Position numbers and translations under genes: made by a program. Of a DNA stretch of 64,000 bases, positions 18,312 through 52,977 are shown piece by piece. The stretch's first letter is position 1. The number at the start of each line of letters is the position of its first letter. The stretch is taken from assembly GCF_009646095.1 (NCBI RefSeq), contig NZ_CP045725.1, positions 1,240,001-1,304,000 of the forward strand. The letters are read 5' to 3'. Under the pieces are notes generated by a model. That model searched no databases and was not told where the DNA came from. It worked only from the letters and a program-made list of their open reading frames with translations. This DNA comes from Raineyella fluvialis (GTDB lineage Bacteria; Actinomycetota; Actinomycetes; Propionibacteriales; Propionibacteriaceae).

Positions 18312-18349
18312 GTCGGTCACCTCGTCGCTGGAGGCGCGGACGCGGTCGG

Positions 18350-18733: not shown

Positions 18734-18760
18734 GGTGGTGCTCCTGTCGGGGATCGGTGG

Positions 18761-19882: not shown

Positions 19883-19910
19883 GGTGGTCCTCTCCTCGAA
19901 CGGTGGGCCG

Positions 19911-22832
<2,922 letters not shown>

Positions 22833-29055: not shown

Positions 29056-30525
29056 TCAGGCCGCCTCGATCGGTGGGATCCGTTCCCTCCCGGTGGTCCG
29101 CTCCCAACAACTCAGCCACGCCTCCCAGCGCACTGCCACCAGGTCGGCGCGATCGGCGCGCGGGCCGGTCTGGGTCGAGGTGGGCGTCGGCAGCCGGACG
29201 CCTGCCGTCGCCTCCGCGCAGATCCCCGCGGCACCCAGGCTCGGCAGATCCGTCTCCATGACCAGGTCGAAGCGCCGCCCCGTGCCGTCGGCCAGCAGCT
29301 GGGGGAACACCGGGTCGACCCCGAACGCACCCGTGAGGTAGATCGACTCGTCCCCGGCGGGGACGACGGCCTCCATCACCAGCCGGTCGGCGGAGACGAC
29401 TCCTTCCACCAGCCCATAGGCGATCTGCGCGCGCGACGTCTCCCGGTTGAGCCCATGGAGCTGGCACACCGGCTCGTTGAACCAGAACGGCCCCCGCTCC
29501 GCCATGATGTGCGGAATGAAGTACGGCGCGTCCGCGGCCTCGGCGGGGGAGATCCTGGCCGCCAGGTCGACCACGTCGCGCACCGCGTCCTCGGCGCCGC
29601 CGAAACCGAAGAAGACCGCTGCGGCGCCGAGCGCGTCGCCCCCGTTCGTCACGCCGTTGATCAGCCATTCACCGTCCCGCAGGCCCCGGCGCTGGAGCGC
29701 GAGCGACCTCCCGTCCGGACCGGACAGACAGCTGTTGACGACATGGGTGGTGCCCAGGATGAGGAACGGCTTGGCCCCTGGCGCCGTGCCGAGAACGTAC
29801 GACGCCGCGGGGGTGTCGGCCGAGCCGACCGCGACGGGAAGCCCCTCGGGGATCCCGAACCGGGCGGAGGCGGCGGACGTGACGGTCCCCAGGATGCTGA
29901 TCGGATCGAGCACGGGAGGGAGGACGGCCGGGTCGATCCCCAACTCCTGGCAGGTGTCGACCAACCAGTGCGAGCCCGGCCCGCAGGTGTCGAACACCCC
30001 GGTGTAGGAGGCCTGGGTCGGGTCCAGCGCACAGACGCCGGTGAGGACCTGCCCCAACCAGGTGCCGGCCAGGCCCATGGTGTCCATCGCCCGGAAGGTG
30101 TCCGGTTCGAGTTCCCTGAGCAGGTGGTACGCGACCGCCGTGAGGGTCGCCGGTGACGCATGGTTCCCGGTCGCCGCGACCTCGCGGGCCGACCGTTTGC
30201 CGGAGTACTCCTCGAAGTACTTGCGCATCGCCGGACTGTCCCAGGTCACTCCCAGTCCCACCGCCCCGCCGTCGGTCCCGAGGGGGACGACGGTGGGGCA
30301 GTGCGTGTCGAGACCGACACCGGAGACGTGAGCCACAGCAGGTCCCAACTTCTGGATCACGTGCTGCAGCGACTGGGCCCAGGCCCGGGTGTCCGCCCGT
30401 CCCGCAAGCCCGCGCCGGGACTCGGGGTGGGTGGCCCGCGCACGGGCCAGCACCTCCCCGGAGTCGGTGATGATGACCCCCTTCGTGGCGGAGGTGCCCA
30501 GATCGATGCCCAGATACGTGCTCAT
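29056..30525 (-). CDS. FGGY-family carbohydrate kinase
   Basis: 489 residues. The two actin-like domains of FGGY kinases are present: phosphate-1 motif GIDLGTSATKGVI at the N-terminus, substrate-region GLDTHCPTVVPLG, phosphate-2 ILGTTHVVNS and adenosine-region LTGAFGVDPVFPQLLAD. It phosphorylates a ketose or polyol; sequence alone does not distinguish erythritol, xylulose, apulose or ribulose kinases. It lies seven bases after the aldolase gene and continues the operon running Zn-dehydrogenase, aldolase, kinase. The neighbours suggest it acts on the ketose made by the dehydrogenase. Confidence 0.9.
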   Translation of the reverse strand: MSTYLGIDLGTSATKGVIITDSGEVLARARATHPESRRGLAGRADTRAWAQSLQHVIQKLGPAVAHVSGVGLDTHCPTVVPLGTDGGAVGLGVTWDSPAMRKYFEEYSGKRSAREVAATGNHASPATLTAVAYHLLRELEPDTFRAMDTMGLAGTWLGQVLTGVCALDPTQASYTGVFDTCGPGSHWLVDTCQELGIDPAVLPPVLDPISILGTVTSAASARFGIPEGLPVAVGSADTPAASYVLGTAPGAKPFLILGTTHVVNSCLSGPDGRSLALQRRGLRDGEWLINGVTNGGDALGAAAVFFGFGGAEDAVRDVVDLAARISPAEAADAPYFIPHIMAERGPFWFNEPVCQLHGLNRETSRAQIAYGLVEGVVSADRLVMEAVVPAGDESIYLTGAFGVDPVFPQLLADGTGRRFDLVMETDLPSLGAAGICAEATAGVRLPTPTSTQTGPRADRADLVAVRWEAWLSCWERTTGRERIPPIEAA

Positions 30526-30532
30526 CGTGGTG

Positions 30533-31360
30533 TCACGCCAGGAACTTCGCCGCGTCGGACACGCCGGCGCCGTCGTGGATGATCGCCTTGAGAGCACGCA
30601 CCATCTTCGCCGGATCCTCCGCGCCCCAGATGTTGCGGCCGGTGGTCATCCCGGCGGCTCCGGCCTCCATCACGTTGGCGGCCTGCTCGAGAACGTCCAT
30701 CGGCGTCTTGGTGGGGGCGCCGCCGGCGGCCACCACGAGCGTGGGGGTCGCCTCCACCACCTTGCGGAACTCCTCGGCGGAGCCGGTGTACCAGGTCTTG
30801 ACGATGTCGGTGCCGCACTCCGCAGCCGCTCGCGCCGCGTACACGACGGAATCGGTCGAGCCCTTGCGGTCACCCCACAGCTCTCCGCTCGGGTACGCGT
30901 GGCACACCACCGGCAGGCCCCACTTGTGCGCCTCTTCGGTGACGGCGCTGAGCATCTCCAGCATCGCCACCTGGTGCTCCGAGCCCGCGGAGATGCCGAC
31001 GGCGATCGCATCGGCGCCGAGCCGCAGGCAGTCGGCGACCTGGCCGACCGTCGCGTCGTACGTGGCGTGGAAGTCGATGCAGAACGTCGAGCCCTTCACG
31101 ATCAGCGGGATCTGCTTGGTGCGGCCCGACAGCAGGTGGCCGGCGACTCCCTTGAAGACGGTGAACGCGTCGGGCTCGGCCTCCATGATCTTGTCGAACG
31201 TCGACTTGAGGTCGGCCAGGCGCGGGGCGACACCCCGCGGGACCGCCTGGTCCAGGGCGACGGTCATCATCCGGCCGTCCTCGCCCAGGATGCGGCGCAG
31301 CCGCAGCTCGCGGCCGAGGGCCGAGGTGGTGCCGATGGGGTTGAGAGTGAACATGTCCAT
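30533..31360 (-). CDS. Class I aldolase of the DeoC/LacD/LsrF type
   Basis: 275 residues, (beta/alpha)8 Schiff-base aldolase (PF01791). The probable Schiff-base lysine is in DIVKTWYTGS, matching the DIVKxxYTG signature of archaeal-type class I fructose-bisphosphate aldolase and LsrF. ALDQAVPRG near the N-terminus and GGAPTK in the phosphate-binding region also match. ATG 31360 follows AAGGAG by six bases. Located between Zn-dehydrogenase and FGGY kinase, it probably cleaves the kinase product, a ketose phosphate, or forms a thiolase-like product as LsrF does. The substrate is not known. Confidence 0.87.
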   Translation of the reverse strand: MDMFTLNPIGTTSALGRELRLRRILGEDGRMMTVALDQAVPRGVAPRLADLKSTFDKIMEAEPDAFTVFKGVAGHLLSGRTKQIPLIVKGSTFCIDFHATYDATVGQVADCLRLGADAIAVGISAGSEHQVAMLEMLSAVTEEAHKWGLPVVCHAYPSGELWGDRKGSTDSVVYAARAAAECGTDIVKTWYTGSAEEFRKVVEATPTLVVAAGGAPTKTPMDVLEQAANVMEAGAAGMTTGRNIWGAEDPAKMVRALKAIIHDGAGVSDAAKFLA

Positions 31361-31400
31361 GGGAATCTCCTTGAGTGTCAGGGTTTCGTGGGGTGATGTG

Positions 31401-32440
31401 TCAAGCCCAGGGATCCACGCCGACGCGCAGGTCCTTGCCGGAGGCGACACGATCCAGGGCGGCGTGTACGTCGTCCAGGGGGAACTGGGTGCCGATCAGG
31501 TCGGCCACGTCGAGACGCCCCGACGACACCAGCGGCGCGATGGCCTGGAAGTTCTCCAGGCGGCAGGACGAGGCGCCGACCACCTCGTACTCGTTGTAGT
31601 GGATGTCGTTGGCGAGGATCTTGAGCACATCGGCGGAGTTGAAGCCGGCGAAGGCGGAGATCCGGGCACCCGGAGCCAGAACGCCGAGGTACGGAGTCAG
31701 GGCGTCATTACGGCCGACCGCCATGATCGCCACGTCCAGGCCCCCGTCGGTGAGGTCCGCGATGTCGGCGGCCACGCTCTGGGAGGGAGCGAAGACGTGG
31801 TCGGCGCCCGAGTCCCGCGCGATCTGGTGGCGTCCGGTGTTCGGATCGACGGCGATGACGGTCTGCACGCCCTGCGCCTTCGCCAACCGGATGTGCATCA
31901 GGCCCAGGGGCCGCAGCCGGAGACGAGGACTGCTTCGGCCCGGCCCACCTTCGCCAGGTTCTGGCCGTTCAGGGCACAGGCCAAGGGCTCGACCACCGCG
32001 GCATGCGTCGCGGGGACCCCGCCGAGGGGGATGAGGCATTGGCGCGCACTGCGCGGGACGCGGATGTACTGCGAGAGCCCCCCGGTCAACTGGTAGCCGA
32101 AGGCCACCCGGTGGCGGCAGATGTTGGGGTGTCCCTTGCGGCAGGCCACGCACTCGCCGCAGGGGACCAGCGGGTAGAGCGCCACCTGGTCGCCCAACTC
32201 CACCCCTTCGGGCAACGGTCCGTTGGAGTCCACGACGACGCCTGCCGTCTCGTGGCCCAGGACGCAGGGAAGCGTCACGTTCTTGGTCTTGGCGCCGGTG
32301 TAGATGCGCACGTCGGTGCCGCAGAGCAGCGCGGAGGTCACCTTGACCAAGGCATCCCCCGGCTCCAGGGCGGGGATGTCGTGCTCCTCGAGGCGTAGGT
32401 CGTTCGGGCTGTGGAGGACCGCTTGCTTCATGCCGGTCAC
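31401..32440 (-). pseudogene. Zinc-dependent polyol/alcohol dehydrogenase, frame broken by one base
   Basis: MDR-superfamily dehydrogenase of about 346 residues when repaired. The N-terminal part has catalytic-zinc motifs LLCGTDVRIYTG and LGHETAGVV and the structural-zinc loop CGECVACRKGHPNIC. The frame stops at 31898, and the Rossmann half (LGLMHIRLAKAQG onward) continues in another frame to 31401. Adding one G to the run at 31907-31910 restores GCGPLGLMHIRLAKAQG. The GTG at 32440 has AGGAG five bases upstream and is preferred to ATG 32431. It would oxidise a polyol to the ketose for the FGGY kinase. It is divergent from the transketolase genes. Confidence 0.85.
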
Positions 32441-32486
32441 TTGTTCTCCTGAGATCTCTCGGATGGGACGACTTCGTACCCTCGAA

Positions 32487-32516
32487 ATGTTCGTTCCAAT
32501 CACGTAGCCCTGTCAA
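32487..32516 (-). promoter_or_regulatory. Promoter and DeoR-like half-site for the dehydrogenase-aldolase-kinase operon
   Basis: Read on the minus strand: TTGACA (32516-32511), 18-base spacer, GAACAT (32492-32487). The -10 lies inside AAATGTTCGTT (32485-32495 on the plus strand), which resembles the GlpR/DeoR half-site consensus ATGTTCGWW. Confidence 0.5.
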
Positions 32517-32556
32517 GTCGGCCATAAATGCGCGGTGTGCGAACACAATGGCCGTC

Positions 32557-32587
32557 TTGACAGCTTGAGCTGCGCACATCGATCATT
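32557..32587 (+). promoter_or_regulatory. Promoter of the split-transketolase operon
   Basis: TTGACA (32557-32562), 18-base spacer, GATCAT (32581-32586), with CGATCATT spanning the -10. The same CGAWCATT text overlaps the -10 of the divergent operon and of the DeoR gene at 42274. Confidence 0.5.
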
Positions 32588-32631
32588 GAGCCGTCGCGTC
32601 AGGCTGACGCGACGTCACAGGAGGAGGAGAC

Positions 32632-33510
32632 GTGTCGCGTCGAGAGCCCTTGCCCCCGGGCGAGATCCAAGCGATGGCAGAAACACTGCGTGCCTCGGTC
32701 ATGCACATGCTGGCGGAGGCACGCAGCGGGCACAGTGCCGGTCCGCTCGGGATGGCGGAGATCCTGGCCAGCTTGTACTTCGGGTGCATGAAGCACGATC
32801 CGGACGACCCGGCCTGGGAGGGCCGCGACGTCTTCATGCTGAGCAACGGCCACACCGCGCCGATCCTGTATGCGGCATTGGCCCACGCCGGGTACTTCCC
32901 GGTGGAGGAGCTCACCAGCCTGCGGCAGTTCGGCAGTCGCCTCCAGGGGCACCCGGAACGGGTCTCGCTCCCCGGGCTGGAGAGCACGTCCGGCCCGTTG
33001 GGCGAAGGCCTGTCACAGGCCGCCGGCTACGCGTACGTGCTGAAGAAGCTGCACCGCAACCCCCATCGGTTCGTGTACGTCGTCATGGGCGACGGGGAGC
33101 TCAATGAGGGCAACGTGTGGGAAGCGGCGATGTTCGCCGCCAAGAACGGGCTCGGGCAGCTCATCGGGATCGTCGATCGCAACTACATCCAGATCGACGG
33201 GGCGACCGAATCGGTCATGCCGCTCGGCGACCTGCGAGCCAAGTGGGAGGCGTTCGGCTGGCACGTGCTCGAGGTCAACGGCCACAGCGTGACCGCCCTG
33301 CTCGACGCGGTCCAGACGGCGCAGGCGGTCGTGGACCGCCCGACGATGATCCTCGCGCACACGATCCCGGGCAAGGGCGTGGATTTCATGGAGTACGACT
33401 TCCGGTGGCACGGGAAGCCGCCGTCGCCGGCGGAGCGGGACGCTTGGCGCTCGGCCCAGGGCCTGGAACCGGCCGGATTCGATCACGTGGCAGCGGAGAA
33501 GGAGCAGTGA
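32632..33510 (+). CDS. Transketolase, N-terminal (TPP-binding) subunit
   Basis: 292 residues: the pyrophosphate domain of a split transketolase. The TPP motif GDGELNEGNVWEAAMFA and DRNYIQIDG are intact, as are the early histidines (GHSAGPLG, SNGHTAPILYAAL). GTG 32632 is preceded by GGAGGAGG. The stop shares a base with the start of the C-terminal subunit (TGATG). Split transketolases often sit in catabolic operons and act on particular ketose phosphates; apulose-4-phosphate transketolase AptA/AptB is one known case. Substrate assignment here is open. Confidence 0.92.
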   Translation: MSRREPLPPGEIQAMAETLRASVMHMLAEARSGHSAGPLGMAEILASLYFGCMKHDPDDPAWEGRDVFMLSNGHTAPILYAALAHAGYFPVEELTSLRQFGSRLQGHPERVSLPGLESTSGPLGEGLSQAAGYAYVLKKLHRNPHRFVYVVMGDGELNEGNVWEAAMFAAKNGLGQLIGIVDRNYIQIDGATESVMPLGDLRAKWEAFGWHVLEVNGHSVTALLDAVQTAQAVVDRPTMILAHTIPGKGVDFMEYDFRWHGKPPSPAERDAWRSAQGLEPAGFDHVAAEKEQ

Positions 33511-34484
33511 TGGCGGGATATCCCTTGGCGGAGGGCGTGCTGACCGACCAGGTCGCGGCGGAGCCCATCAGGGTCGGCTTCGGCCGGGGCCTGCTCGAGG
33601 CCGGCCGGCGCGACGAACGGGTGGTGGCGCTGTGTGCGGACCTCACCGACTCCACGCAGATGTCCCGGTTCCTCGACGCGTTCCCCGACCGGTTCGTCGA
33701 GGTCGGGATCGCCGAGCAGAACCTGGTGACGGTGGCCGCCGGGATGGCCCGGGCCGGCATGATCCCCTTCACCAGCTCGTACGCGGCGTTCTCGCCCGGC
33801 CGCAACTGGGAGCAGATCAAGACCTCGGCCTGCCTGAACGAGCTCCCGGTCAAGGTGGTCGGTTCACACGCCGGCCTGATCACGGGCAAAGACGGCGCGA
33901 CGCACCAGATGCTCGAGGACATCGCCCTGATGCGCGTCCTGCCCGGCATGGTCGTCGTCTGCCCCGGTGACAGCATCGAAGCGGAGAAGGCCACCGTGGC
34001 CATCGCCGCGAACGATGCGCCCAGCTACCTGCGACTGGCACGCGACGCCACTCCGGTCTTCACCACCCCGGACTCACCCTTCGAGCTCGGCCGGGCCTAC
34101 GTCCTCCGCGAGGGAAGCGACGTCACCCTGGCCGGCACCGGAGCGCTGAGCTACGAACTCCTGGTCTGCGCCGACTTGCTCGCCAGGGAGGGGATCGAGG
34201 CCGAAGTGATCCACATGCCGACTGTCAAGCCCCTCGATGAGGAGACGCTGTTGGCGAGCGCCACCAGGACCGGGGCGGTCGTCACCGCCGAGGAGGCCCA
34301 GGTCGCCGGCGGTTTCGGCGGGGCGGTGGCTGAGCTCCTGAGCGCCTGCCAGCCCTCCCGACTGCTGCGCCTGGGCGTGGAGGACCGGTACGGGGAGTCG
34401 GGCGACCCGCGCGAACTCCTGGAGGCGTTCGGACTGACGGGGGCCGGGATGGCGCAGAGGGTCCGTCAGTTCCTGTCACGATGA
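33510..34484 (+). CDS. Transketolase, C-terminal (pyrimidine-binding) subunit
   Basis: 324 residues: the PYR and C-terminal domains of a split transketolase. The catalytic glutamate is in VGIAEQNLVTVAAGMA, with the phenylalanine-rich FTSSYAAF following; SHAGLITGKDGATHQ marks substrate and TPP contacts. It works with the preceding subunit as a heterotetramer. Translation is coupled on both sides: TGATG with the N subunit and ATGA with the downstream DeoR regulator. Confidence 0.92.
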   Translation: MAGYPLAEGVLTDQVAAEPIRVGFGRGLLEAGRRDERVVALCADLTDSTQMSRFLDAFPDRFVEVGIAEQNLVTVAAGMARAGMIPFTSSYAAFSPGRNWEQIKTSACLNELPVKVVGSHAGLITGKDGATHQMLEDIALMRVLPGMVVVCPGDSIEAEKATVAIAANDAPSYLRLARDATPVFTTPDSPFELGRAYVLREGSDVTLAGTGALSYELLVCADLLAREGIEAEVIHMPTVKPLDEETLLASATRTGAVVTAEEAQVAGGFGGAVAELLSACQPSRLLRLGVEDRYGESGDPRELLEAFGLTGAGMAQRVRQFLSR

Positions 34485-35338
34485 GCAGGCCCTCGACACC
34501 ACCCGGGAGACGCATGAGCACGCCCCACGCGGCTGACGACCAGCCTGCACGCACCGCCCGACGCGACGTCAGGGGCGACAAGCGGCGTGCCCGGATCGTG
34601 GAGCTCGTCTCCACCGGGGCCAACGTCGCCGTCGCCGACCTGGCCGAGCAGTTCGGTGTGTCACTGGCGACCATCCGGCGTGACCTCAGCGACCTCGAGG
34701 AGCGCAAGATCCTGACCCGTACGTACGGGGGCGCGGCGCTCGCCCGCCCCCGCGCCGAGCTGGACATGCTGCAACGAGGTCAGGCGCACGCCGGCACCAA
34801 GCGCGCGATCGGTGCGCGGGCGGCGGGGATGGTCGAGGACGACGACCTGATCATCCTCGACGCCGGGTCGACGACGGAGCAGGTGGCCCTGGCCCTCGAT
34901 AACCGCCCCGTCACCGTCGTCACCAACGGGCTGCGCATCATCGTGCGCCTGGTGGCTTCGGACAACGTCAAGGTGCTGGTGCTGGGCGGGAGCCTGCGAG
35001 GATTCAACGAGACCATCCACGGCGCCGACGCCGAGGCCATGCTGCGGCGTGTCTACGCCAGGTACGCCTTCGTCGGTGCCGACGCCATCCACCCCCGGCG
35101 GGGGGTGGCCTCGCGCACGTACGAACAGGCTCGCCTCAAGTCCCTGATGATGGAGAGCGCCGCTGAGGTCGTGGTCGTCTCGGACTCCTCCAAGCTCGGC
35201 GACAGCAGCTTCAACCACTGGTCCCCCATGCCGCCCCGGTGGACGCTGATCACGGATCAGGAGGCGGATCCGGCGGTGCTGGAGTCCCTGCGGGGCACCG
35301 GTGCCGACGTCGTGCTGTGCGGGCCGGAAGGCGCCTGA
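34481..35338 (+). CDS. DeoR/GlpR-family transcriptional regulator (copy 1)
   Basis: 285 residues. N-terminal DeoR HTH (VADLAEQFGVSLATIRRDLSDLEE, about 52-75) and a C-terminal sugar-phosphate sensor with LDAGSTTEQVALAL, TNGLRII, LGGSLRGFNETIHG and SDSSKLG. Its start overlaps the transketolase stop (ATGA); ATG 34514 is a possible later start. It is a clear paralogue of the DeoR protein at 42274, sharing long blocks including GGSLRGFNET and SRTYEQARLKSLM. It probably represses the flanking divergent operons and is relieved by a phosphorylated intermediate. It is followed by a strong hairpin at 35366. Confidence 0.92.
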   Translation: MSRPSTPPGRRMSTPHAADDQPARTARRDVRGDKRRARIVELVSTGANVAVADLAEQFGVSLATIRRDLSDLEERKILTRTYGGAALARPRAELDMLQRGQAHAGTKRAIGARAAGMVEDDDLIILDAGSTTEQVALALDNRPVTVVTNGLRIIVRLVASDNVKVLVLGGSLRGFNETIHGADAEAMLRRVYARYAFVGADAIHPRRGVASRTYEQARLKSLMMESAAEVVVVSDSSKLGDSSFNHWSPMPPRWTLITDQEADPAVLESLRGTGADVVLCGPEGA

Positions 35339-35365
35339 CACAGTCCGCCCCCCGCACCGGACGAA

Positions 35366-35395
35366 GCCCCCGGCGGCCACCGAGCCGCCGGGGGC
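35366..35395. terminator. Bidirectional terminator between deoR copy 1 and tpi
   Basis: Perfect 12-bp GC stem GCCCCCGGCGGC / GCCGCCGGGGGC with a 6-base loop, placed between two convergent genes. Confidence 0.85.
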
Positions 35396-35403
35396 CACAC
35401 ACA

Positions 35404-36159
35404 TCACGCGACCTGCGCCACCGCCCCCGCGGCGATGTCGAGCAGACCCAGGTAGCCGTCGATTGTCCACGCGGCGCGGCCGACGAACAGGCCGTCCACT
35501 CCAGGGACCCGCAGCGTGTCCACCGCGTTGCCCGGGTTCACCGAGCCGCCGTAGAGGATCGCGGTCACCCGATCGCCCCACTCGTCGGCCAGCGCCGCGA
35601 ACACCGGCGCGATGTCGGCCGGACGCGCCTCGCGACCGTGCTCCCCGATCGCCCAGATCGGTTCGTACGCGATCACCACCCGGCTAGGGTCCGCCACGTC
35701 GGCCAGGGCGGCAGCCACCTGGCCGAGCACGTGCTCGACACTGTCACCGGCCTCGAACACGGCCGCCGACTCGCCCACGCACAGGATCGGTCGCAGCCCG
35801 TGGCGCAGCGTGCTGCGCACCTTGAGGTTGACCGTCGCGTCGGTTTCCCCGAAGAACTCACGTCGCTCCGAGTGGCCGATCTCCACCAGAGCGGCCCCCG
35901 CCTCGGCCGCCTGCGGCACCGAGATCTCCCCGGTCCAGGCGCCGGCGTCCTCCCAGTGCGCGTTCTGCACTCCGAGCAGCACCGGGCTGTCGGGCCCGAG
36001 GCAGTCGCGGACGACCGTCAGCGCCGTGGCGGGAGGAATGATGAACGGCTGCACGCCGGACGGAGCACCGTCGGCCAACGCCTTGGCGAGCCGCGTGGCG
36101 TAGTCGCGCGCGAAGCCCAGCGTCCCGTTCATCTTCCAACTCGTCCCCACCCACAGCAT
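35404..36159 (-). CDS. Triosephosphate isomerase-family protein
   Basis: 251 residues with complete catalytic set: Lys in TSWKMNG, His in IGHSERREFFGE, Glu in AYEPIWAIG, and phosphate loop GGSVNPGN. ATG 36159 shares a base with the rpiB stop (TGATG). A TPI placed beside an RpiB-like protein and away from the gap-pgk cluster resembles EryH (TPI2) and EryI of tetritol pathways, where it isomerises erythrulose phosphate. It could equally be a second DHAP/GAP isomerase supporting the PdxA2 product DHAP. Catalytic residues do not decide between them. Confidence 0.88.
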   Translation of the reverse strand: MLWVGTSWKMNGTLGFARDYATRLAKALADGAPSGVQPFIIPPATALTVVRDCLGPDSPVLLGVQNAHWEDAGAWTGEISVPQAAEAGAALVEIGHSERREFFGETDATVNLKVRSTLRHGLRPILCVGESAAVFEAGDSVEHVLGQVAAALADVADPSRVVIAYEPIWAIGEHGREARPADIAPVFAALADEWGDRVTAILYGGSVNPGNAVDTLRVPGVDGLFVGRAAWTIDGYLGLLDIAAGAVAQVA

Positions 36160-36620
36160 CAGCCGACCCCCTCGTACGCACAGATCGCGTCGACCTTCGG
36201 AGCAGACGCCGACGTCGCGTCGAAGGTGTACTCGAGGAACTCCGCGGCGAGCCGGCGGGCCAGCTCCACCCCGATCACCCGCGCACCGAGGCACAGCACC
36301 TGGCCGTTGTTCGACAGCACCAGCCGCTCCACGGAGAAGCTGTCGTGCGCGGTGCTGGCGCGCACGCCCGGCACCTTGTTGGCCGAGATCGCCATCCCCA
36401 TCCCGGTGCCGCAGACGAGGATGGCGCGTTGCGCCTCGCCGTCGGCGACCTTCCGGGCCCCGGCCACCCCGACGTGCGGGTAGAAGGTCTGGTCGTCGGC
36501 AGAGCCGACACCCACGTCGATCACCCGATCGACGCGCGGGTCGGCCGCGAGATCGGCCTTGATCCGGTCCTTGTAGTCCACGCCGGCGTTGTCGGCACCG
36601 ACCACCACCACGTATCCCAT
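36159..36620 (-). CDS. RpiB/LacAB-family sugar-phosphate isomerase
   Basis: 153 residues. The RpiB fold is shown by GADNAGVDYKDRIKADL near the N-terminus, the active-site cysteine region LVCGTGMGMAISANKVPG (about residues 68-85) and ASTAHDSFSVERLVLSNN. In RpiB the Cys in CGTGxGxxIxANK is the base. Paired tightly with a TPI paralogue it most resembles EryI/DerI, which convert D-erythrulose-4-phosphate to D-erythrose-4-phosphate, a transketolase substrate. True rpiA activity is already provided at 28210, which favours a specialised role. Starts at ATG 36620 after GAGGAGAAG. Confidence 0.88.
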   Translation of the reverse strand: MGYVVVVGADNAGVDYKDRIKADLAADPRVDRVIDVGVGSADDQTFYPHVGVAGARKVADGEAQRAILVCGTGMGMAISANKVPGVRASTAHDSFSVERLVLSNNGQVLCLGARVIGVELARRLAAEFLEYTFDATSASAPKVDAICAYEGVG

Positions 36621-36749
36621 GTCTTCTCCTCGCTGTGTCCGGACGCGACGAACGTCCGGAGGGTGTGTTCAGGGTCGGGGCGAGCGGATCCGCTCCCCCG
36701 CAGGGGCGGCCACGGGCCGCCCGGGGCAGGCCTGACGGCCTACCGGAAA

Positions 36750-36774
36750 GGGCCGGCCGGATCCCGGCCGGCCC
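36750..36774 (-). terminator. Terminator downstream of pdxA2
   Basis: Perfect 11-bp stem GGGCCGGCCGG / CCGGCCGGCCC with a 3-base loop, between the pdxA2 stop and the rpiB start. It separates the acid-sugar operon from the rpiB-tpi pair. Confidence 0.75.
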
Positions 36775-36814
36775 CCGGCCCCGTCACGTCCGGACAGGGC
36801 CTACGTCGTGCTCC

Positions 36815-37849
36815 TCAGGAGACGGCGAGCGCCTCCCGGTGCGACAGCAGCCGACCGGCGTACTCGGCGGCCACCCGGGTCGACTCGATCATGCTTCCGC
36901 CGTTGGCGACGCCCTTGCCGGCGATGTCGAAGGCGGTGCCATGGTCCACGGAGGAGCGCATGAACGGCAGCCCGAGGGTGACCGTCACCGCCTTCTCGAA
37001 GTCCAGGGTCTTGCAGGCGATGTGTCCCTGGTCGTGGTAGAGCGACAGGATGCAGTCGTGGTGCCCGTCCAGGCCGAAGGCGAAGACCGAGTCGCCGGGC
37101 AACGGCCCGCGGGCGTTGATGCCGAGCTTCTTGGCGTCCTCGACGGCCGGGATCAGGTGCTCGACCTCTTCGGTGCCGAACATGCCGCCCTCGCCGCCGT
37201 GCGGGTTGAGGGCCGCCACCGCGATCGACGGGTCCTCGAAGCCCAGGGCGCGCAGCTCGCGGTCGATGTCCTTGAGGTACGTCAGGGTGCGCTCCCGGGT
37301 GATCAGGTCGCAGGCCTGGCGTACGGACACGTGCCGGGTGAGGAAGAACACCCGCAACTTGTGCACGTTGAACATCGTCAGGGCGTACGGGGAGTGGGTG
37401 AGCTCGTTGAAGATCTCGGTGTGGCCGATGAAGGGGATGTGCGCCGCCTTCAGGGCCGCCTTGTTGATCGGGGCGGTGGACACGGCGTCCAGGCGCCCGG
37501 CCAGGCCGAGTTCGATCGACTTCTCCAGGTAGGAGTACGCCTGCCGGGCGGCATCCGCCTGGACGACGCCGTACTCGATCGTCGCGTCCGGCACGGCGTG
37601 GGTGTCGAGCAGGTCGACGGTGCCGTACTCGTACGCCGCCTCCTCCGGTGCGGAGATCTCGTGGATCCGCAGGGTGGTTCCCTGGATCGCGGCGGCCCGC
37701 TCCAGGTGCTGCCGGCTACCGATCACGAACGGGCGGCAGGCCTCGTAGATCATCGGGCTCTGCACCGTCTGGAGGACGATCTCCGGGCCGATCCCCGCGG
37801 GGTCTCCGAGGGTGATCGCCGTGACCGGCCTAAGCGCTGACTGCTGCAT
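36815..37849 (-). CDS. pdxA2: 4-phosphoerythronate/4-phosphothreonate dehydrogenase-like protein (PdxA2)
   Basis: 344-residue PdxA-family NAD- and metal-dependent oxidoreductase. TLGDPAGIGPEI opens the domain; metal-binding histidines are in FIGHTEIF, LNPHGGEGG and YHDQGH. PdxA2 oxidises 4-phospho-threonate or -erythronate to a 3-keto acid that decarboxylates to DHAP. It partners the DUF1537 kinase directly upstream, with a 20-base overlap. ATG 37849 is preceded by AAGAGG and AAGGA. Because it is linked to an acid-sugar kinase rather than to serC/pdxJ, vitamin B6 biosynthesis is unlikely. Confidence 0.92.
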   Translation of the reverse strand: MQQSALRPVTAITLGDPAGIGPEIVLQTVQSPMIYEACRPFVIGSRQHLERAAAIQGTTLRIHEISAPEEAAYEYGTVDLLDTHAVPDATIEYGVVQADAARQAYSYLEKSIELGLAGRLDAVSTAPINKAALKAAHIPFIGHTEIFNELTHSPYALTMFNVHKLRVFFLTRHVSVRQACDLITRERTLTYLKDIDRELRALGFEDPSIAVAALNPHGGEGGMFGTEEVEHLIPAVEDAKKLGINARGPLPGDSVFAFGLDGHHDCILSLYHDQGHIACKTLDFEKAVTVTLGLPFMRSSVDHGTAFDIAGKGVANGGSMIESTRVAAEYAGRLLSHREALAVS

Positions 37850-39227
37850 TTTCCTTGACCTCTTCTTGACATGAGCTCCGATTGTTCTCATCGAAGATCC
37901 GATTGACGCATTGCACTGCGGTCTGCGGGGTGCCGGTGAGGCCGCCCTTGCAGACCACGGGGATGCCGTCCCACGGCCCACCCACGACGACGCCCTGGTC
38001 GGCCTGGGGGATGACGTAGTCGACGAGTCCGAGACCACGGGTCCCGAGGGCCTTGCAGGTGTTGACCATGACGTCGCCACCCGTCAGGTACAGGCCGGCC
38101 AGCGAGCAGCCGATCGCCACGGCGGCGCGGCGACCGATCTCGCCCAGGCGCAGCGGGATCCGGGAGGGGCCGGTGCCGGGTTCCAGACCGGCCCCCCGTT
38201 CCAGAGCGGCGAGGTCCACGACCCGCCCCGAGAGGGTCGATTCCAGACCCAGCATGACCACCCGCGGCGGCGTCGGCAGGTTCATCAGCCGGGTCACCTC
38301 GTCGAAGGCCCGCTCCGCCTCGGCGGTGAACGCCGCCTCCTCGCCGATCAACGGACCGATCGCGATCTCGACGACCTCGGTGCCGGGGACCTGGCGCAGC
38401 TCGTTCATCTGGCCGTTCGTGGTGCCGGTCGCGCTGCCGGCCACCACCAGGACGGTGCCCCGGTCGCTCTCGGCACAGTGGAGCCGGGTGGTGCGCTCCT
38501 GCGGCACCCGGGTGGGCACCACGCCGCTGCGGATGGCCATCCGCTCGGTGAACGGGCCCGGATCCACGCACACCGTCTTCCAGCCGAGTTCGACCAGCGC
38601 GAGGGCGATCGTGTCGACGTCCTCGAGCGACGTGGCGTCCACCAGGATCGCCCGGGCACCGGCGGCACGCTCCTCGACCAGAGCCGCCTTCAGACAGTCC
38701 GTCCCGGCGAGCACGGCGTCGATGCCGACCTGGCCGACCGCGACGCTGCACTGCCCGGCCAGCAGCCGGCGCAGGTTGGACTCGGTGACCGGGGTCCGTA
38801 CGTCCACCGCCACCGGGGTGCGGGCGAGCAGCACCGAGTCGATCAGCGAGTAGCCGCCCACGACGATGCGCCGGGACTGCGGCATGGCGGGCACGACGAC
38901 GGCCACGTAGTCGTCGCCGAGCACGCTGAGCATGCCCTCGACCTCGGGGCCTATCCCGCCGCGGCAGGTGGTGTCGATCCGCTTGGAGAACAGCCGGGCG
39001 CCGGCGTCCACCAGGTCCTGGGTGGCGTGATGCACCCTGGCGTACGCCTCGGGTCCGGGCAGGGCCCGGGAGTCCGAGTTGATGATCACGGCCTCGTGGT
39101 CCCCGTCCAGCTCCCCGACGCCGCCGGCGTCGAACAGGACGACGGTGTCCACCCCGACGCGCGCCAGCAGGGCGCCCACGGTGGTCGCTCCGGTCAGGTC
39201 GTCGGCGATGATGCCTAGGCTCGGCAT
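37830..39227 (-). CDS. Four-carbon acid sugar kinase (DUF1537 family)
   Basis: 465 residues. The N-terminal DUF1537 domain begins GIIADDLTGATTVGALLA, contains FSKRIDTTCRGG and VVPAMPQSRRIVVGG, and the C-terminal nucleotide-binding domain has AGSATGTTNGQM, GLYLTGGDV and CKGGLTG. Family members phosphorylate D-threonate, L-threonate or D-erythronate at C4 with ATP. Adjacent PdxA2 completes the conversion to DHAP, and the MFS transporter upstream probably imports the acid. Which of the acids is used cannot be told from sequence. Confidence 0.92.
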   Translation of the reverse strand: MPSLGIIADDLTGATTVGALLARVGVDTVVLFDAGGVGELDGDHEAVIINSDSRALPGPEAYARVHHATQDLVDAGARLFSKRIDTTCRGGIGPEVEGMLSVLGDDYVAVVVPAMPQSRRIVVGGYSLIDSVLLARTPVAVDVRTPVTESNLRRLLAGQCSVAVGQVGIDAVLAGTDCLKAALVEERAAGARAILVDATSLEDVDTIALALVELGWKTVCVDPGPFTERMAIRSGVVPTRVPQERTTRLHCAESDRGTVLVVAGSATGTTNGQMNELRQVPGTEVVEIAIGPLIGEEAAFTAEAERAFDEVTRLMNLPTPPRVVMLGLESTLSGRVVDLAALERGAGLEPGTGPSRIPLRLGEIGRRAAVAIGCSLAGLYLTGGDVMVNTCKALGTRGLGLVDYVIPQADQGVVVGGPWDGIPVVCKGGLTGTPQTAVQCVNRIFDENNRSSCQEEVKENAAVSA

Positions 39228-39264
39228 GTCCTCATCTCCTCTCGTGGTTGCGTACGGTCGCTGG

Positions 39265-40623
39265 TCAGTCGGCGAGGGCGAGGGCCGCGTTCTTCGGCCT
39301 GGCCTCGACCAGCGTGAGGATCACGCCGAGGGCGAGCACCAGGACCACGACGAAGTAGCCGAAGGCGACGCCGTAGTTGCCGCCAGTGACGTCCAGCAGG
39401 GCGCCGACGATCATCGGGGCGAAGAAGCCGCCGAGGTTGCCGCCGGAGTTGATCAGGCTGATCGCGAAGGGGTACGTCTTCACGTTGGTGACGTCCATCG
39501 GGTACGCGGTGAACATCGGCCAGCCGATGTTCAGGAAGAAGCCGGTCAGCATCAGGCTGACGACGATCAGCGTGGTGTTCTGCGGCGCGTTGATGACGGC
39601 GACCAGCATGATGGCGGCGAACAGCGCGGTGAGCAGCATCGTCGGCTTGCGGCGGCCGTTGAACACCTTGTCGGAGATGTAGCCACCGATCAGCGCGCCG
39701 ATCAGGCCACCGACGGCCGGTGCGGCGGCGATGAAGCCGGTCTTGGCGAGGGTGAAGTGCCGGGCCTGGACCAGGTAGAGCGGGACCCAGGTGAGGAGGC
39801 CGTAGTTCACGTTGTTCATGAAGAAGTAGGCCAGGGTGTCGCCCCACACGTTCCACGACTTCAGGACCTGGCCGTTGCTGTCCATCGTCCGGACGTCCTT
39901 GAGCCGGATGAGGCGGTCGAGCCAACCCATCGAGCGGAACTCGACCTTCTTGCCCGCGGTGGAGGTGTCGTTGATGTGGGCGAGCTCCAGCTCGTTGACC
40001 TGCTTGCTCTGCGAGGGACGGTTACGGACCACCAGGTACCAGATGATGGACACGAGCACGCCCGGAGCGGCGAACCAGAGGAACACCGCGCGCCAGCCGG
40101 CGGCCATCGCGATGGCGATCGCGATCGTCGGGACGATGATCGGGGCGAACTGCGTCGAGGCGATGTAGAGACCCGTCGCGGTGCCCTTCTCCTTGGCCGG
40201 GAACCAGGCGTTGACCGTGGAGGTCATGCCGACAGGCACCGGGCCCTCGGCGAGACCGAGCAGCAGGCGAAGCGCCAGCAGACCGACCGCCGCGGTGGTG
40301 AAGCCCATCATGAACGTCACGACGGAGAAGGCCAGGATCGCGATCGAGACGATCGTACGCGTCCCCTTCTTGCCGATCAGCAGCCCGGCGGGGATCTGCG
40401 AGACCGCGTAGCCGAGGAAGAAGAAGCTGGAGATCGCACCCATCGTGAAGTTCGAGATCACGAACTCTTTCTTCACGAAGGGCAGCAGGGCGCCGATGTT
40501 GGACCGGTCGGCCATGCAGACCACGTAGCCCACGAAGATCGTCCCCATCACGACCCAGCGATAGGCGGTCGGCTTGGTGACCGGGGCGCGGCGCGCGGAA
40601 GTAGGTTGGATTGATGTTGCCAT
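39265..40623 (-). CDS. MFS transporter, anion:cation symporter (ACS) family
   Basis: 452 residues with 12 predicted helices. ACS-family features are MADRSNIGALLPFVKKEF after TM1, FLGYAVSQIPAGLLIGKKGTR-type motif A and LLGLAEGPVPVGMTS in TM4/5, as in the galactonate, glucarate and tartrate transporters. ATG 40623 follows GGGAGCACCAACC. It is the first gene of a three-gene operon with the DUF1537 kinase and pdxA2, so it probably imports a four-carbon sugar acid by proton symport. Confidence 0.92.
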   Translation of the reverse strand: MATSIQPTSARRAPVTKPTAYRWVVMGTIFVGYVVCMADRSNIGALLPFVKKEFVISNFTMGAISSFFFLGYAVSQIPAGLLIGKKGTRTIVSIAILAFSVVTFMMGFTTAAVGLLALRLLLGLAEGPVPVGMTSTVNAWFPAKEKGTATGLYIASTQFAPIIVPTIAIAIAMAAGWRAVFLWFAAPGVLVSIIWYLVVRNRPSQSKQVNELELAHINDTSTAGKKVEFRSMGWLDRLIRLKDVRTMDSNGQVLKSWNVWGDTLAYFFMNNVNYGLLTWVPLYLVQARHFTLAKTGFIAAAPAVGGLIGALIGGYISDKVFNGRRKPTMLLTALFAAIMLVAVINAPQNTTLIVVSLMLTGFFLNIGWPMFTAYPMDVTNVKTYPFAISLINSGGNLGGFFAPMIVGALLDVTGGNYGVAFGYFVVVLVLALGVILTLVEARPKNAALALAD

Positions 40624-41022
40624 GGTTGGTGCTCCCAATGTCGTCCTTGACAGTGAGCAATCGGTGATCTGCCCCGCGAACGGTGACCCGAACGCGAGGT
40701 GGCTCCGACCGACCTGACGACGACGAGCGGTGACCACGACCGCCGGCGAGCTGGGGTGCCGGGTCCGCGCATGTTCCGCGGCTCCACCAGGTCGCGCCGG
40801 ATGTGCCGGTCGCGGCGCCGATCCGTCAGGTGCCACCTCCGCGGTCTGCGAACCTCGGAGCGTGGCGGATGACCAACGCTGGGCCACATCCTGCTCCACA
40901 CCCCGCCCCCGGACACCACCCCGATGCCCGAGTCCGGGAGGATGTGTCATTATTGGCACGGGCTTTGACAGGCCCTTGTTGTGTTGCCCCTGATGATCGC
41001 GTCCCATGGGAGGTCTGCTCAC
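40624..41022. other. 399-base divergent regulatory region of the acid-sugar operon
   Basis: No gene recognised. It separates the MFS operon (leftward) from a SorC regulator (rightward). TTGACA at 40965-40970 is a possible -35 for the regulator, but no good -10 follows at normal spacing. The short GGGC-N8-GCCC repeat at 40961-40976 overlaps it. Long shadow frames of the MFS gene extend through here without ribosome binding sites. Confidence 0.45.
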
Positions 41023-42014
41023 ATGGTGTCGCGTCACCCCGAAGCGGAACACACGGCGACCCCGCTCGGCCCCCGCAGCCGGGCTCGACTGGCCCAGCTG
41101 GCGGAGCTCTATTGGGTGGACGGGCACACCGTGGAGGACATCGGCCGGCAGCTCGGCATGTCGCGCTCGACCGTGTCCCGACAACTGGCGCGTGCCCGGG
41201 CGGAGGGCGTGATCGAATTCGTGGTGCATCGCGACGCCAGCGCCGACCTCGCCCATGAGTTGGCGGGCCGGTATCGGGTCCGTGCCGACGTCGTCGACGT
41301 GATGCCAGAGGCAGCCGCCCCGGCGCGACTGGAGGCCGTGGCCGCTGCGGCGGCCCGCCGCCTCGCGTCGCTGATCGCCCCGGAGATGATCGCGACGATC
41401 GCGTGGGGGGCCACCATCGAGGCGGTGGCGCGCCATCTGGAGCCCTACCCCGTCCACGGTGTCCGGATCGTCCAGGCCAACGGTGCGGGCAACTCCTTCA
41501 CCCCCGGGATCGCGTACGCCGGCGGACTGATGGAACGCTTCGCCCAGGCCTTCTCGGGCAGCGTCCAGTTGCTCCCGATGCCGGCCTTCTTCGACTCCGC
41601 GGCCACCCGCGAGGCGATGTGGCGCGAGGGGAGCCTCCAACGCGTTCTGCGGCTGCGCCGTTCCGCCGACCTCCTGGTGACCTCGATCGGCACGGTCCGC
41701 AGTGAGTTGCCGGGCCACCTCTACCGAGGCGGCTACCTCGGGGACCATGTCGTCCAGGAGTTGCTCGCCCACGGGGTGGTGGGCGACCTGGCCGGCATGT
41801 TCTTCCGGGCCGACGGCAGCTTCGACGCCATCGGCGCCAACGACCGCTCCACCGGCCTACCGCTGGGGGACCTGCGGCGCATCCGCACTCGTCTGGTCGT
41901 CGCGGCCGGCGGGGCAAGGCCGCCGCGCTCCGGGCGGCCCTGGCGGCTGGTTTCGTCACCGATCTGGTGGTCGACGCGCGCTGCGCGGAGGATGTCCTGG
42001 CAGGCGCGGAATGA
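41023..42014 (+). CDS. SorC/DeoR-type sugar-binding regulator (copy 2), C-terminus frameshifted
   Basis: About 330 residues when repaired. HTH at GHTVEDIGRQLGMSRSTVSRQL, then the SorC sensor domain: TIAWGATIEAVARHL, QANGAGNSF, MPAFFDSAATREAMW, GVVGDLAGMFFRADGS. As written the frame departs after VVAAGG and runs to 42075; adding one G to the run at 41911-41914 restores KAAALRAALAAGF and ends at 42014. ATG 41023 follows GGGAGG at nine bases. It is divergent from the MFS-DUF1537-pdxA2 operon and is its likely regulator. It is a paralogue of the glpD-linked protein at 13836. Confidence 0.87.
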
Positions 42015-42082
42015 TTGCATCGCGCATTCACGTCTCGACAAGGGCCCCAAACCTCGGCAGATCGGCTCATCTTGACGGGTAC

Positions 42083-42113
42083 TTGACAGGAGTCTTGATC
42101 TAAACGATCATTT
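42083..42113 (+). promoter_or_regulatory. Promoter with DeoR-like site ahead of deoR copy 2
   Basis: TTGACA (42083-42088), 17-base spacer, GATCAT (42106-42111). AACGATCATTT across the -10 is the reverse complement of AAATGATCGTT, one base from the site AAATGTTCGTT at 32485. The region 42015-42273 otherwise holds no gene. Confidence 0.5.
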
Positions 42114-42273
42114 TCGAAGCAAGCTGTGATCGACCGCGCCCAGAGTTCCCGGTTTCCGACCCCGGGGACCGACCACAGTGAGCACACGGTGATCAGCGTC
42201 GCCCTCGGGTGGACCCGTCGCTCCGACACCGAGTAACCACCGGGTCCACCCCACCGCGGGGGAGAATCACGTC

Positions 42274-43143
42274 ATGGCTGACGCACACCCCGCCCGTACG
42301 TCCGAAGAATCCGCCGTCCAGCGTCCGGTGAAGTCCAGCAAGGGGCAACGCCGTCGCGAGCAGATCCTGCACCTGCTGACCACTGATCCGGAGACGAACG
42401 TGACGGTGAGCGACCTGTCCGAGACTTTCGGGGTCTCGGTGGCGACGATCCGCCGCGACCTGTCCGATCTCCAGGAGCAACGCCTCATCACCCGTACGTA
42501 CGGTGGAGCCGCCCTCCAGCGACTACCTGCCGAACTCACCATGGTCGAGAGGGAGTCGACCCACGCCGACGCCAAAAGGGCCATCGGACGGGCCGGGGCA
42601 GCGCTCATCGAGGACGGCGACCTGGTCATCCTGGACTCCGGCTCGACCACGGAACAACTCGCCATCGCCCTCGGTGACCGGCCGGTCACCGTGGTCTCCA
42701 ACGGCCTGCGCGTCGTGCGTCAACTGGTGCCGTACGCGCAGGTCCGGGTGACCGTGCTCGGTGGGTCGCTACGTGGTTTCAACGAGACGACGTACGGCCC
42801 CGACGCCGAGGCGATGCTCCAGCACGTGTACGCGACCCTGGCCTTCGTGGGCACCGACGCCGTCGATCCGCAGCGCGGCATCACGTCGCGTACGTACGAG
42901 CAGGCCCGACTGAAGTCGCTCATGCTCCAGAACTCCCAACAGGTGTTCGTCGTCGCCGACTCGTCCAAGCTCGGCCAGCACCAGGCTTTCAATTACTGGT
43001 CCCCCCTGCCCGCCGGCTGGGGACTGATCACCGACGACGGCGCCGATCCCGAGGCGCTGGAAGAGCTTCGAGCGGTCGGGGCGACCGAGATCATCATCGC
43101 CCCGACCGCTCGGGAGACGTCCGAGGGGGCAGCACTCGCCTGA
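42274..43143 (+). CDS. DeoR/GlpR-family transcriptional regulator (copy 2)
   Basis: 289 residues with DeoR HTH (VSDLSETFGVSVATIRRDLSDLQE, about 47-70) and C-terminal sensor (LDSGSTTEQLAIAL, SNGLRVV, LGGSLRGFNETTYG, ADSSKLG). It shares most of its sensor domain with the copy at 34481, including SRTYEQARLKSLM, so the two probably bind related sugar phosphates. ATG 42274 lies 22 bases after GGGGGAG text. It stands at the right edge of the catabolic cluster with its own promoter carrying a DeoR-like half-site, so autoregulation is likely. Confidence 0.92.
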   Translation: MADAHPARTSEESAVQRPVKSSKGQRRREQILHLLTTDPETNVTVSDLSETFGVSVATIRRDLSDLQEQRLITRTYGGAALQRLPAELTMVERESTHADAKRAIGRAGAALIEDGDLVILDSGSTTEQLAIALGDRPVTVVSNGLRVVRQLVPYAQVRVTVLGGSLRGFNETTYGPDAEAMLQHVYATLAFVGTDAVDPQRGITSRTYEQARLKSLMLQNSQQVFVVADSSKLGQHQAFNYWSPLPAGWGLITDDGADPEALEELRAVGATEIIIAPTARETSEGAALA

Positions 43144-43691: not shown

Positions 43692-43770
43692 CCATCAGCG
43701 CCTCGCGGGCCGACCCACTGGTTCCGGACGACTCACATCACCCTCCACGCACAACGAGAAGGACCTGGCT

Positions 43771-47449: not shown

Positions 47450-47510
47450 GTCTTCCTCCTCGGACGAGGTCGGTCCCCGCGCAGACCAGGAGTCCGCGCG
47501 GGGACGTGGG

Positions 47511-51504: not shown

Positions 51505-51565
51505 AACGATCTCCTCATTGAGACGGGTGGGGATGGGGTGGCGGATGGGGGTGAGGACGATGCGG

Positions 51566-52942: not shown

Positions 52943-52977
52943 CGTCGGTCTCCTGTCGGCTGTGATCGGGGTGGGGG

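Follow-up and report, generated by a model that had tools for sequence, protein, structure and literature searches.

We read the region 29056–43143 of the window (the whole stretch of DNA analyzed, 64,000 nucleotides) as a pair of linked sugar-acid modules, a tentative assignment held at somewhat less than even confidence. Module 1 comprises an MFS transporter, a DUF1537 kinase and PdxA2, usually with RpiB and TPI paralogues; module 2 comprises a Zn-dehydrogenase, a DhnA-type aldolase and an FGGY kinase. The gene orders of both modules are found again in other genera, and thus go beyond a chance juxtaposition of individual genes. The gene families, their recurrence, the phylogenetic placement of the TPI paralogue (TPI2) and the presence of operator-like sites were observed directly. 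The features are as follows.

28210–28908, minus strand: RpiA, ribose-5-phosphate isomerase A (TIGR00021 above cut-off)
29056–30525, minus strand: FGGY-family sugar kinase, module 2
30533–31360, minus strand: DhnA/DeoC-LacD-type class I aldolase, module 2
31401–32431, minus strand: Zn-dependent dehydrogenase, module 2; one frame change near 31907–31910
32488–32502, no strand given: DeoR operator-like site with one mismatch, in the dehydrogenase/transketolase gap
32632–33510, plus strand: transketolase N-terminal subunit
about 33510–34484, plus strand: transketolase C-terminal subunit (start codon approximate, searched from 33516)
34481–35338, plus strand: DeoR-family regulator 1
35404–36159, minus strand: TPI2, TPI paralogue, candidate LerI/EryH-type isomerase, module 1
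36159–36620, minus strand: RpiB paralogue, candidate DerI/EryI-type isomerase, module 1
36815–37849, minus strand: PdxA2-type dehydrogenase/decarboxylase, module 1
37830–39227, minus strand: DUF1537 acid-sugar kinase, module 1
39265–40590, minus strand: ACS-type MFS transporter, module 1 (start approximate)
40981 to about 42011, plus strand: SorC-family regulator; a single frame change near 41910, the G061 gene being open throughout
42096–42110, no strand given: DeoR operator-like site TGATCTAAACGATCA
42274–43143, plus strand: DeoR-family regulator 2

Every gene named in the original prediction is present within 29056–43143 and belongs to the family stated there; that account lacked the SorC-type regulator, and the start of its region left RpiA just outside. 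RpiA is separated from the FGGY kinase by a hairpin, and its membership of the gene set is uncertain. The surrounding area contains further genes read as xylose and glucitol genes, and an ABC sugar transporter at about 47.5–51.7 kb lies beside a gene read as xylose isomerase.

The DUF1537 kinase domain is confirmed by PF07005 (E 3.5e-56), and the PdxA-family dehydrogenase, which adjoins the kinase in all eight genomes, scores above the cut-offs of TIGR00557 and NF002992. The kinase misses the D-threonate kinase equivalog cut-off (172.9 of 450 bits), and PdxA2 misses that for D-threonate-4-phosphate dehydrogenase (267.7 of 583 bits). The top match of the MFS transporter is the D-galactonate transporter family, below cut-off.

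A search of the family, with up to 11 candidates scored per genome, found module 1 in eight out of 147 genomes, including this one, and RpiB and TPI follow PdxA2 in seven out of the eight that have the DUF1537 kinase. The original prediction had assigned this pair to a polyol branch; here both genes lie downstream of PdxA2 on the same strand, and they travel with PdxA2 and not with the FGGY kinase and the aldolase. MFS–DUF1537–PdxA2 sets without the pair are seen in one genome (G016) and in Alicyclobacillus, and the pair is absent from two of the three plasmid loci examined. In two genomes, G051 and G080, the pair is only about 34–37% identical to that of the window, and it thus seems to have been recruited twice. 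A related cluster of Klebsiella (NZ_CP098173) has the order SorC-TPI-PdxA-DUF1537-KdgT-PTS IIA-RpiB-Tal-Tkt; its TPI and RpiB are 46% and 45% identical, respectively, to those of the window, with the same TPI loop. The first part of its kinase matches srlE DNA of E. coli; when the E. coli genome was searched with the Klebsiella PdxA/DUF1537 DNA, the matches listed covered about 11% of the query and corresponded to srlE. A search of the open-licence literature found no paper on this cluster. The Brucella DUF1537 genes were set aside; the passages on them describe an LtnD/OtnK/OtnC-type cluster and do not mention PdxA.

EryH and EryI, known from tetritol degradation, are TPI-like and RpiB-like, respectively. 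TPI2 lies outside the housekeeping clade and groups, with support 99/99, with TPIs encoded beside a DAK-type kinase at loci L049 and L053 (15-row tree, carrying the program's long-branch warning). It is 61–63% identical to these two TPIs versus 35–39% to housekeeping TPIs, and the loop reads AIGEHG/AIGDHG in the TPI2 group versus AIGTG in the housekeeping proteins. The RpiB paralogue is 77% identical to RpiB of L049 versus 30–32% to those of L029, L031, L032 and L033. The proteins compared include none with known LerI or DerI activity. TPI2 is only 40–42% identical to other DAK-linked TPIs (L050, L052, L054), hardly above the value for housekeeping TPIs; in the same tree, rooted at its midpoint, the TPI2 clade joins the housekeeping clade before those TPIs. 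Another set of DAK-linked TPIs forms a group with the TPIs of G051 and G080 (100/98). TPI2 also exceeds the cut-off of the plain TPI model, and RpiB that of the plain ribose-5-phosphate isomerase model (TIGR02133); RpiB misses the DerI equivalog NF051858 (140.6 of 240 bits), a model whose name suggests a rhizobial subset. The genes of 29056–43143 include no DAK-type erythrulose kinase. By these comparisons, TPI2 and RpiB are not housekeeping copies and are candidate tetrulose-phosphate isomerases of the EryH/EryI kind. The original prediction had contrasted the region with EryH/EryI-type routes; these identities and the tree do not support that contrast. According to a section of PMC10733421, LerI and DerI convert L-erythrulose-1-phosphate to erythrose-4-phosphate.

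Module 2 was found at ten loci in all. It is present in at least three of the 147 family genomes, with no more than 10 candidates scored in each. Wider searches at class level, with four candidates scored per genome, gave at least 2/394 and at least 1/394 genomes, and a search in the family of G527 with five candidates gave at least 1/301. A contig scan with the aldolase alignment yielded seven loci; with the FGGY protein as query, such a scan gave none. The aldolase neighborhood of R. johnstonii pRL12 was rejected as a module 2, its kinase being PfkB, not FGGY. Aldolase residues K188, D37, Y156, G241 and R242 are invariant in all ten loci, and N243 in nine; alignment places the aldolase residues in register with those of MJ0400 and archaeal FBP aldolase. 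We take Lys188 to be the Schiff-base lysine, and Asp37, Tyr156 and the GRN motif to be the class I DhnA-type signature. LsrF/LsrK identity was rejected (equivalog scores 115.3 of 297 and 59.3 of 528 bits). Genes accompanying the ten loci encode a D-2-hydroxyacid dehydrogenase (seven loci), glycerate kinase (five), an ACS-type MFS transporter (six) and a TRAP transporter (one). Since relatives thus carry sugar-acid-type transporters, the hydroxyacid dehydrogenase and glycerate kinase, a sugar acid is a likelier substrate of module 2 than a polyol, and the polyol branch of the original prediction is doubtful. An orthologue of the module 2 hydroxyacid dehydrogenase is missing from the window's genome (best identity 28–34%), and the examined stretches of the other nine loci contain no transketolase.

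For both modules, we infer all substrates, products, the reaction order and regulation. In module 1, the MFS transporter would import an aldonate, the DUF1537 kinase would phosphorylate it, and PdxA2 would oxidize the 3-hydroxyl and release CO2, an action resembling that of 6-phosphogluconate dehydrogenase, to give a ketose phosphate one carbon shorter. Given the neighboring TPI2 and RpiB of the tetrulose-phosphate kind, the likeliest product would be an erythrulose phosphate derived from a C5 acid; TPI2 and RpiB may turn this phosphate into D-erythrose 4-phosphate for transketolase. DHAP, the product originally proposed, is doubtful because RpiB and TPI follow PdxA2 in seven out of eight genomes and transaldolase and transketolase join the set in Klebsiella. 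In module 2, the Zn-dehydrogenase would form a keto-acid, the FGGY kinase would phosphorylate it, and the aldolase would cleave the product to DHAP and a C3 acid aldehyde; other bacteria would reduce this aldehyde and phosphorylate it via D-glycerate. The modules may be linked by a DeoR regulator, whose operator-like site recurs.

Alternatively, a C4 tetronate (D-threonate or D-erythronate) could be phosphorylated and converted by PdxA2 to DHAP, which TPI2 would isomerize, RpiB being incidental. The family placement of PdxA2, the known role of DUF1537/PdxA2 partners, the TPI2 score against the plain TPI model and the sets without RpiB/TPI in G016 and Alicyclobacillus agree with this; we nevertheless consider it somewhat unlikely, as RpiB and TPI accompany PdxA2 in seven out of eight genomes and in two subfamilies, both fall outside the housekeeping groups, Tal and Tkt join the set in Klebsiella, and the D-threonate cut-offs are missed. 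Module 2 might instead be a polyol route that starts with the phosphorylation of erythritol or a related tetritol, followed by oxidation to erythrulose 1-phosphate and cleavage by the aldolase to DHAP and formaldehyde. The enzyme set formally fits, TPI2 and RpiB are adjacent, such an erythrulose-1-phosphate aldolase had been suggested for Propionibacterium pentosaceum, as a part of PMC10733421 states, and the erythritol pathway of P. freudenreichii could not be reconstructed in PMC4437456. The gene complement of the relatives argues against it; moreover, all 21 P. freudenreichii strains use erythritol according to PMC4437456, whereas module 2 was found in only three out of 147 family genomes (a lower bound), which may not include P. 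freudenreichii, and we regard this route as decidedly improbable. The same excerpt of PMC10733421 names the co-occurrence of that aldolase with LerI/DerI-type isomerases an open question; that the DhnA-type aldolase is a natural erythrulose-1-phosphate aldolase, forming with TPI2, RpiB and transketolase an erythrulose-monophosphate route linked to sugar-acid breakdown, is a long shot, in which aldolase and isomerases would share one pool, yielding DHAP and formaldehyde or running in reverse. Least credible is a D-apiose/apiitol route via a dehydrogenase, an FGGY apulose kinase and a split apulose-4-phosphate transketolase, modeled on an E. coli cluster of two oxidoreductases, AplK and split AptAB tied to apiose growth (PMC13001218, in part). 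Here the window transketolase is 36–37% identical to AptA/AptB versus 44–48% to a further split transketolase in the genome of the window, blastp at 1e-10 gives no match between the FGGY kinase and AplK, the E. coli oxidoreductases (SE15 locus) are SDRs, and transketolase is missing from the other module 2 stretches; the route was rejected on sequence, kinase and transketolase not being closest to AplK/AptAB.

As to linkage, the original prediction would have fallen if its two branches never stayed together; the acid branch adjoins the FGGY branch in three out of three genomes (at least 3/147). Since G073 and G096 are of one genus, these are at most two independent cases. Each module also stands without the other: module 1 in five out of eight genomes, including G061 of the same genus, and module 2, in the stretches examined, in four Actinomyces, Schaalia, G527 and Rhizobium sp. 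X9, which counts against one obligate pathway. Of the original prediction, the two branches are supported, the contrast with EryH/EryI is not, and the DHAP product and the polyol branch are in doubt. Two unrelated operons might be neighbors by chance, each module being found alone elsewhere and the area being rich in carbohydrate genes, including those read as xylose and glucitol genes; this is unlikely, as the modules are adjacent in a second genus in a different layout and share a regulator of the DeoR 2 type and operator-like sites. In two Micropruina MAGs, the regulator that accompanies both modules shares 70–71% identity with DeoR regulator 2. Three gaps hold two operator-like sites versus 0.07 expected (P 0.0018), TGATCTAAACGATCA at 42096–42110 being the sole exact match in the window; 16 sites with one mismatch occur in the window, 14 of them outside the two named gaps, a density that gives about 0.2 expected in three gaps. 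No such site lies in the MFS–SorC gap of the window or in the MFS–DeoR gap of G073. The sites weakly suggest that both modules may be under shared control. The single frame changes in the dehydrogenase and SorC genes might mark pseudogenes of a decaying remnant, which is very improbable: both halves of each gene are about equally conserved, and a break of the same kind occurs in this assembly's housekeeping TPI, which is open throughout in the three congeners searched. Therefore, the breaks are probably assembly errors.

Searches of the open-licence literature, judged by titles and abstract starts, gave nothing recognized as either module. If the two-module reading is true, module 1 is a route feeding erythrose 4-phosphate from acids, some genes next to DUF1537 that are annotated as "RpiB" or "TPI" need renaming, and module 2 is a sugar-acid route built on an aldolase, for which Actinomyces species and a Rhizobium plasmid supply named enzymes that can be tested. 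Both offer concrete assay targets.

Among known systems, autoinducer-2 processing by LsrK/LsrF shares an FGGY kinase, a DeoC/LacD-type aldolase and a SorC regulator nearby; the window operon has a Zn-dehydrogenase, is far from the equivalog cut-offs and is accompanied by neither an Lsr transporter nor LsrG in the 28–45 kb whose genes were scanned (the ABC transporter at about 47.5–51.7 kb lies outside the scan). D-apiose degradation (AplK-AptAB) likewise combines an FGGY kinase with a split transketolase, whereas the window is not closest to it by sequence and adds an aldolase, with no apiose isomerase noticed. Tetritol pathways, in Brucella with EryH/EryI and in Mycobacterium smegmatis with LerI/DerI, resemble the window in the side-by-side TPI and RpiB paralogues, whose nearest counterparts are in both cases encoded next to a DAK-type kinase; the window operon lacks such a kinase, and its tetrulose phosphate would come from PdxA2. 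The Klebsiella cluster has the same enzyme set, transketolase and a SorC-type regulator, but a different transporter, a kinase whose first part matches srlE, and an extra transaldolase. Finally, DUF1537/PdxA2 acid-sugar pathways, such as the DtnK–PdxA2 pathway for D-threonate reportedly described by Zhang et al. in 2016, share the combination of a DUF1537 kinase with an adjacent PdxA2-type dehydrogenase and a sugar-acid-type transporter; the window differs in missing the D-threonate equivalog cut-offs and in adding the RpiB/TPI pair and a nearby transketolase.

Gene calls and profile searches confirmed the gene content of the original prediction for this region of the genome, which consists of one contig of 3.65 Mb. 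The genes are arranged as follows.

40590-35404, minus strand: ACS-type MFS transporter (39265-40590), DUF1537 kinase, PdxA2, RpiB, and the triosephosphate isomerase paralogue TPI2 (module 1)
32431-29056, minus strand: Zn-dehydrogenase, DhnA-type aldolase, FGGY kinase (module 2); RpiA beyond
Between the two minus-strand runs, plus strand: split transketolase and DeoR1
After the MFS gene, plus strand: SorC and DeoR2

The suggestion that these genes form one undescribed pathway holds in part: the association is real and its coherence is above chance, but there are two separable modules rather than one, and the isomerase families are known. The proposed polyol branch is doubtful; both modules are probably involved in sugar-acid degradation.

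The area is rich in carbohydrate genes, as xylose-operon-like and glucitol-type-PTS-like genes flank the region (46493-55588 and 441-4082). A second SorC-family regulator (13815-14807), 41.6% identical to SorC of the congeneric genome G061, lies beside a GlpD-like gene, and at 43233-44823 a MerR (NmlR-like) regulator and an Ahr-like alcohol dehydrogenase, preceded by a perfect palindrome, look like an aldehyde-stress pair. Genes flanking module 1 in G061 (locus L048) appear to lie approximately 12-20 kb beyond module 1 in the window (55805-63245), and hence the locus looks rearranged.

The Zn-dehydrogenase is split into two open frames joining at ~31907-31910, and SorC into two joining at 41910. 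Intact relatives align over both breaks, with 73.7 and 78.7% identity on the two sides for the dehydrogenase, and 76.0 and 76.5% for SorC. This assembly also carries a like break in its housekeeping TPI (~2046-2049 of L024, G000:C1:2618775-2622329; 94 and 91% on its sides), a gene unbroken in three out of three congeners searched, which hints at assembly indel errors. For the Zn-dehydrogenase and SorC, real mutation is less likely; assembly indels are the best reading of both breaks.

The two branches were expected to stay together in related genomes, and module 1 indeed adjoins module 2 in all three family genomes found with module 2. In the Micropruina genome G073, the MFS operon and the DeoR–Zn-dehydrogenase–aldolase–FGGY operon diverge from a common gap, and in G096, from the same genus, the arrangement is spread over contigs C266 and C315, each carrying part of DUF1537. 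NCBI assigns Micropruina, a genus near the host, to Nocardioidaceae within the Propionibacteriales. A module-2 match is missing in five out of eight module-1 genomes. The palindrome TGATYNNNNNRATCA, with at most one mismatch, is found upstream of a transporter or regulator in eight out of 14 relatives' loci (L011, L012, L013, L015, L016, L017, L048, L070) and not in L010, L014, L065, L066, L068, and L069. Its sole exact match in the window, at 42096, is upstream of DeoR2, and a near match (32488) lies in the gap between the Zn-dehydrogenase and the transketolase N-terminal subunit. Three window gaps contain two such sites against 0.07 expected (P 0.0018, to be read with the motif having been chosen after inspection of the gaps); the whole window has 16 against 2.5 expected, and at this density ~0.2 would be expected in the three gaps.

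The FGGY protein of module 2 was matched in at least three out of 147 family genomes (E 1e-60), its alignment in at least two out of 394 class genomes, own genome included (1e-90), and the aldolase search yielded seven contigs, from two Micropruina, four Actinomyces, and one Schaalia, with one further, distant locus on a Rhizobium plasmid. All ten loci compared (window, L010–L017, L070) have the Zn-dehydrogenase, aldolase, and FGGY kinase. A D-2-hydroxyacid dehydrogenase adjoins them in seven loci and is absent beside module 2 in the window and Schaalia, L011 having a run of N after the kinase at this point; glycerate kinase is present in five, an ACS-type MFS in six, and a TRAP transporter in one. 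The glycerate kinase passed TIGR00045; the best matches of the dehydrogenase (glyoxylate reductase) and of two MFS scanned (D-galactonate transporter family) were below cut-off. This dehydrogenase lacks an orthologue in the window genome; a locus at 1.41 Mb, whose genes read as those for glycerate kinase, hydroxypyruvate isomerase, glyoxylate carboligase, and tartronate semialdehyde reductase, could stand in for the missing reductase. Near these genes is a second split transketolase, accompanied by a TIM-barrel-like protein and a kinase distantly resembling DUF1537 (L051, G000:C1:1395000-1414999, 8832-19998). No split transketolase was met in the examined stretches of the other nine module-2 loci. 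In Actinomyces glycerinitolerans (L012:1-6268), module 2 is preceded on the same strand by an Rbs-like ABC transporter, a lactonase-like amidohydrolase, a TIM-barrel-like protein, and a ribokinase-like gene.

The DUF1537 protein was matched in eight out of 147 family genomes, the window's among them (E 1e-70). PdxA2 adjoins it in all eight, and the MFS in seven (in G058 the alignment covers residues 143-437 only), none being seen on the examined G096 contigs. RpiB and TPI follow PdxA2 in seven genomes, and in G016 a DeoR gene takes their place. G061 has module 1 with SorC and DeoR2, no Zn-dehydrogenase, aldolase, or FGGY within the 20 kb examined, and a full-length transketolase with PTS-like genes ~5.5 kb downstream. 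Three outside loci were inspected, from 1207 and 123 matching records. The Klebsiella pneumoniae record has the order SorC, TPI, PdxA, DUF1537, KdgT permease, PTS IIA, RpiB, transaldolase, transketolase; its kinase gene start (L075:6617-8335), with PTS IIA adjacent, resembles E. coli srlE DNA (PTS glucitol IIB). Two further plasmid loci with DUF1537 and PdxA show no TPI or RpiB within 6-7 kb, one having a KpsF/GutQ-type isomerase.

Neither TPI2 nor RpiB is a housekeeping copy: three TPI loci and four RpiB genes are present in the window genome. In a tree of 15 rows, which carried a long-branch warning, TPI2 clusters with the TPI of a DAK-type-kinase locus (L049, L053; support 99/99), away from housekeeping TPI, and both share the loop AIGEHG or AIGDHG (AIGEGG in one module-1 copy). 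A second DAK-linked set (L050, L052, L054; loop AIGA) is 40-42% identical to TPI2 and groups with the module-1 TPIs of G051 and G080; therefore, both module-1 kinds side with DAK-linked copies, each with a different group. The Klebsiella TPI (loop AIGEHG) is 46% identical to TPI2 versus 34-36% to three housekeeping TPIs. The window RpiB is 77% identical to that of L049 and 69-72% to those of L028, L030, and L034, whose neighbors include DAK-type-kinase-like and class II aldolase-like genes.

PdxA-type enzymes act by oxidizing the hydroxyl group at the position beta to the carboxyl, with loss of CO2. PdxA2 would thus convert a C4 acid phosphate to DHAP, a C5 one to erythrulose 4-phosphate, and a C6 one to a pentulose phosphate. 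The main rival for module 1 is a C4 acid, with DHAP as the PdxA2 product; the attached isomerases and the Klebsiella transaldolase and transketolase argue for longer acids, C5 foremost. For module 2, the aldolase, whose nearest PDB sequence is MJ0400, retains Asp37, Tyr156, and Lys188. Alternative products would be glyoxylate, hydroxypyruvate with glyceraldehyde-3-phosphate, or formaldehyde; by analogy with ketose-1-phosphate aldolases, we favor DHAP and a three-carbon acid aldehyde.

Loci with a DAK-type kinase, a small NAD-binding dehydrogenase-like protein, and an MFS (L049, L053, L066) possibly represent an apionate-like route. Those with a DAK-type kinase, TPI paralogue, and MFS (L050, L052, L054, from G061, the window genome, and G022), where L050 also shows RpiB and, like L052, a TIM-barrel-like protein, are candidate erythritol/threitol loci. 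We take LerI and DerI to be members of the TPI2 and RpiB families. According to PMC10733421, LerI and DerI convert erythrulose 1-phosphate to erythrose 4-phosphate; in PMC4437456, the erythritol pathway could not be reconstructed in P. freudenreichii. Modules 1 and 2 together are a variant of kinds already known, with isomerases of known families.
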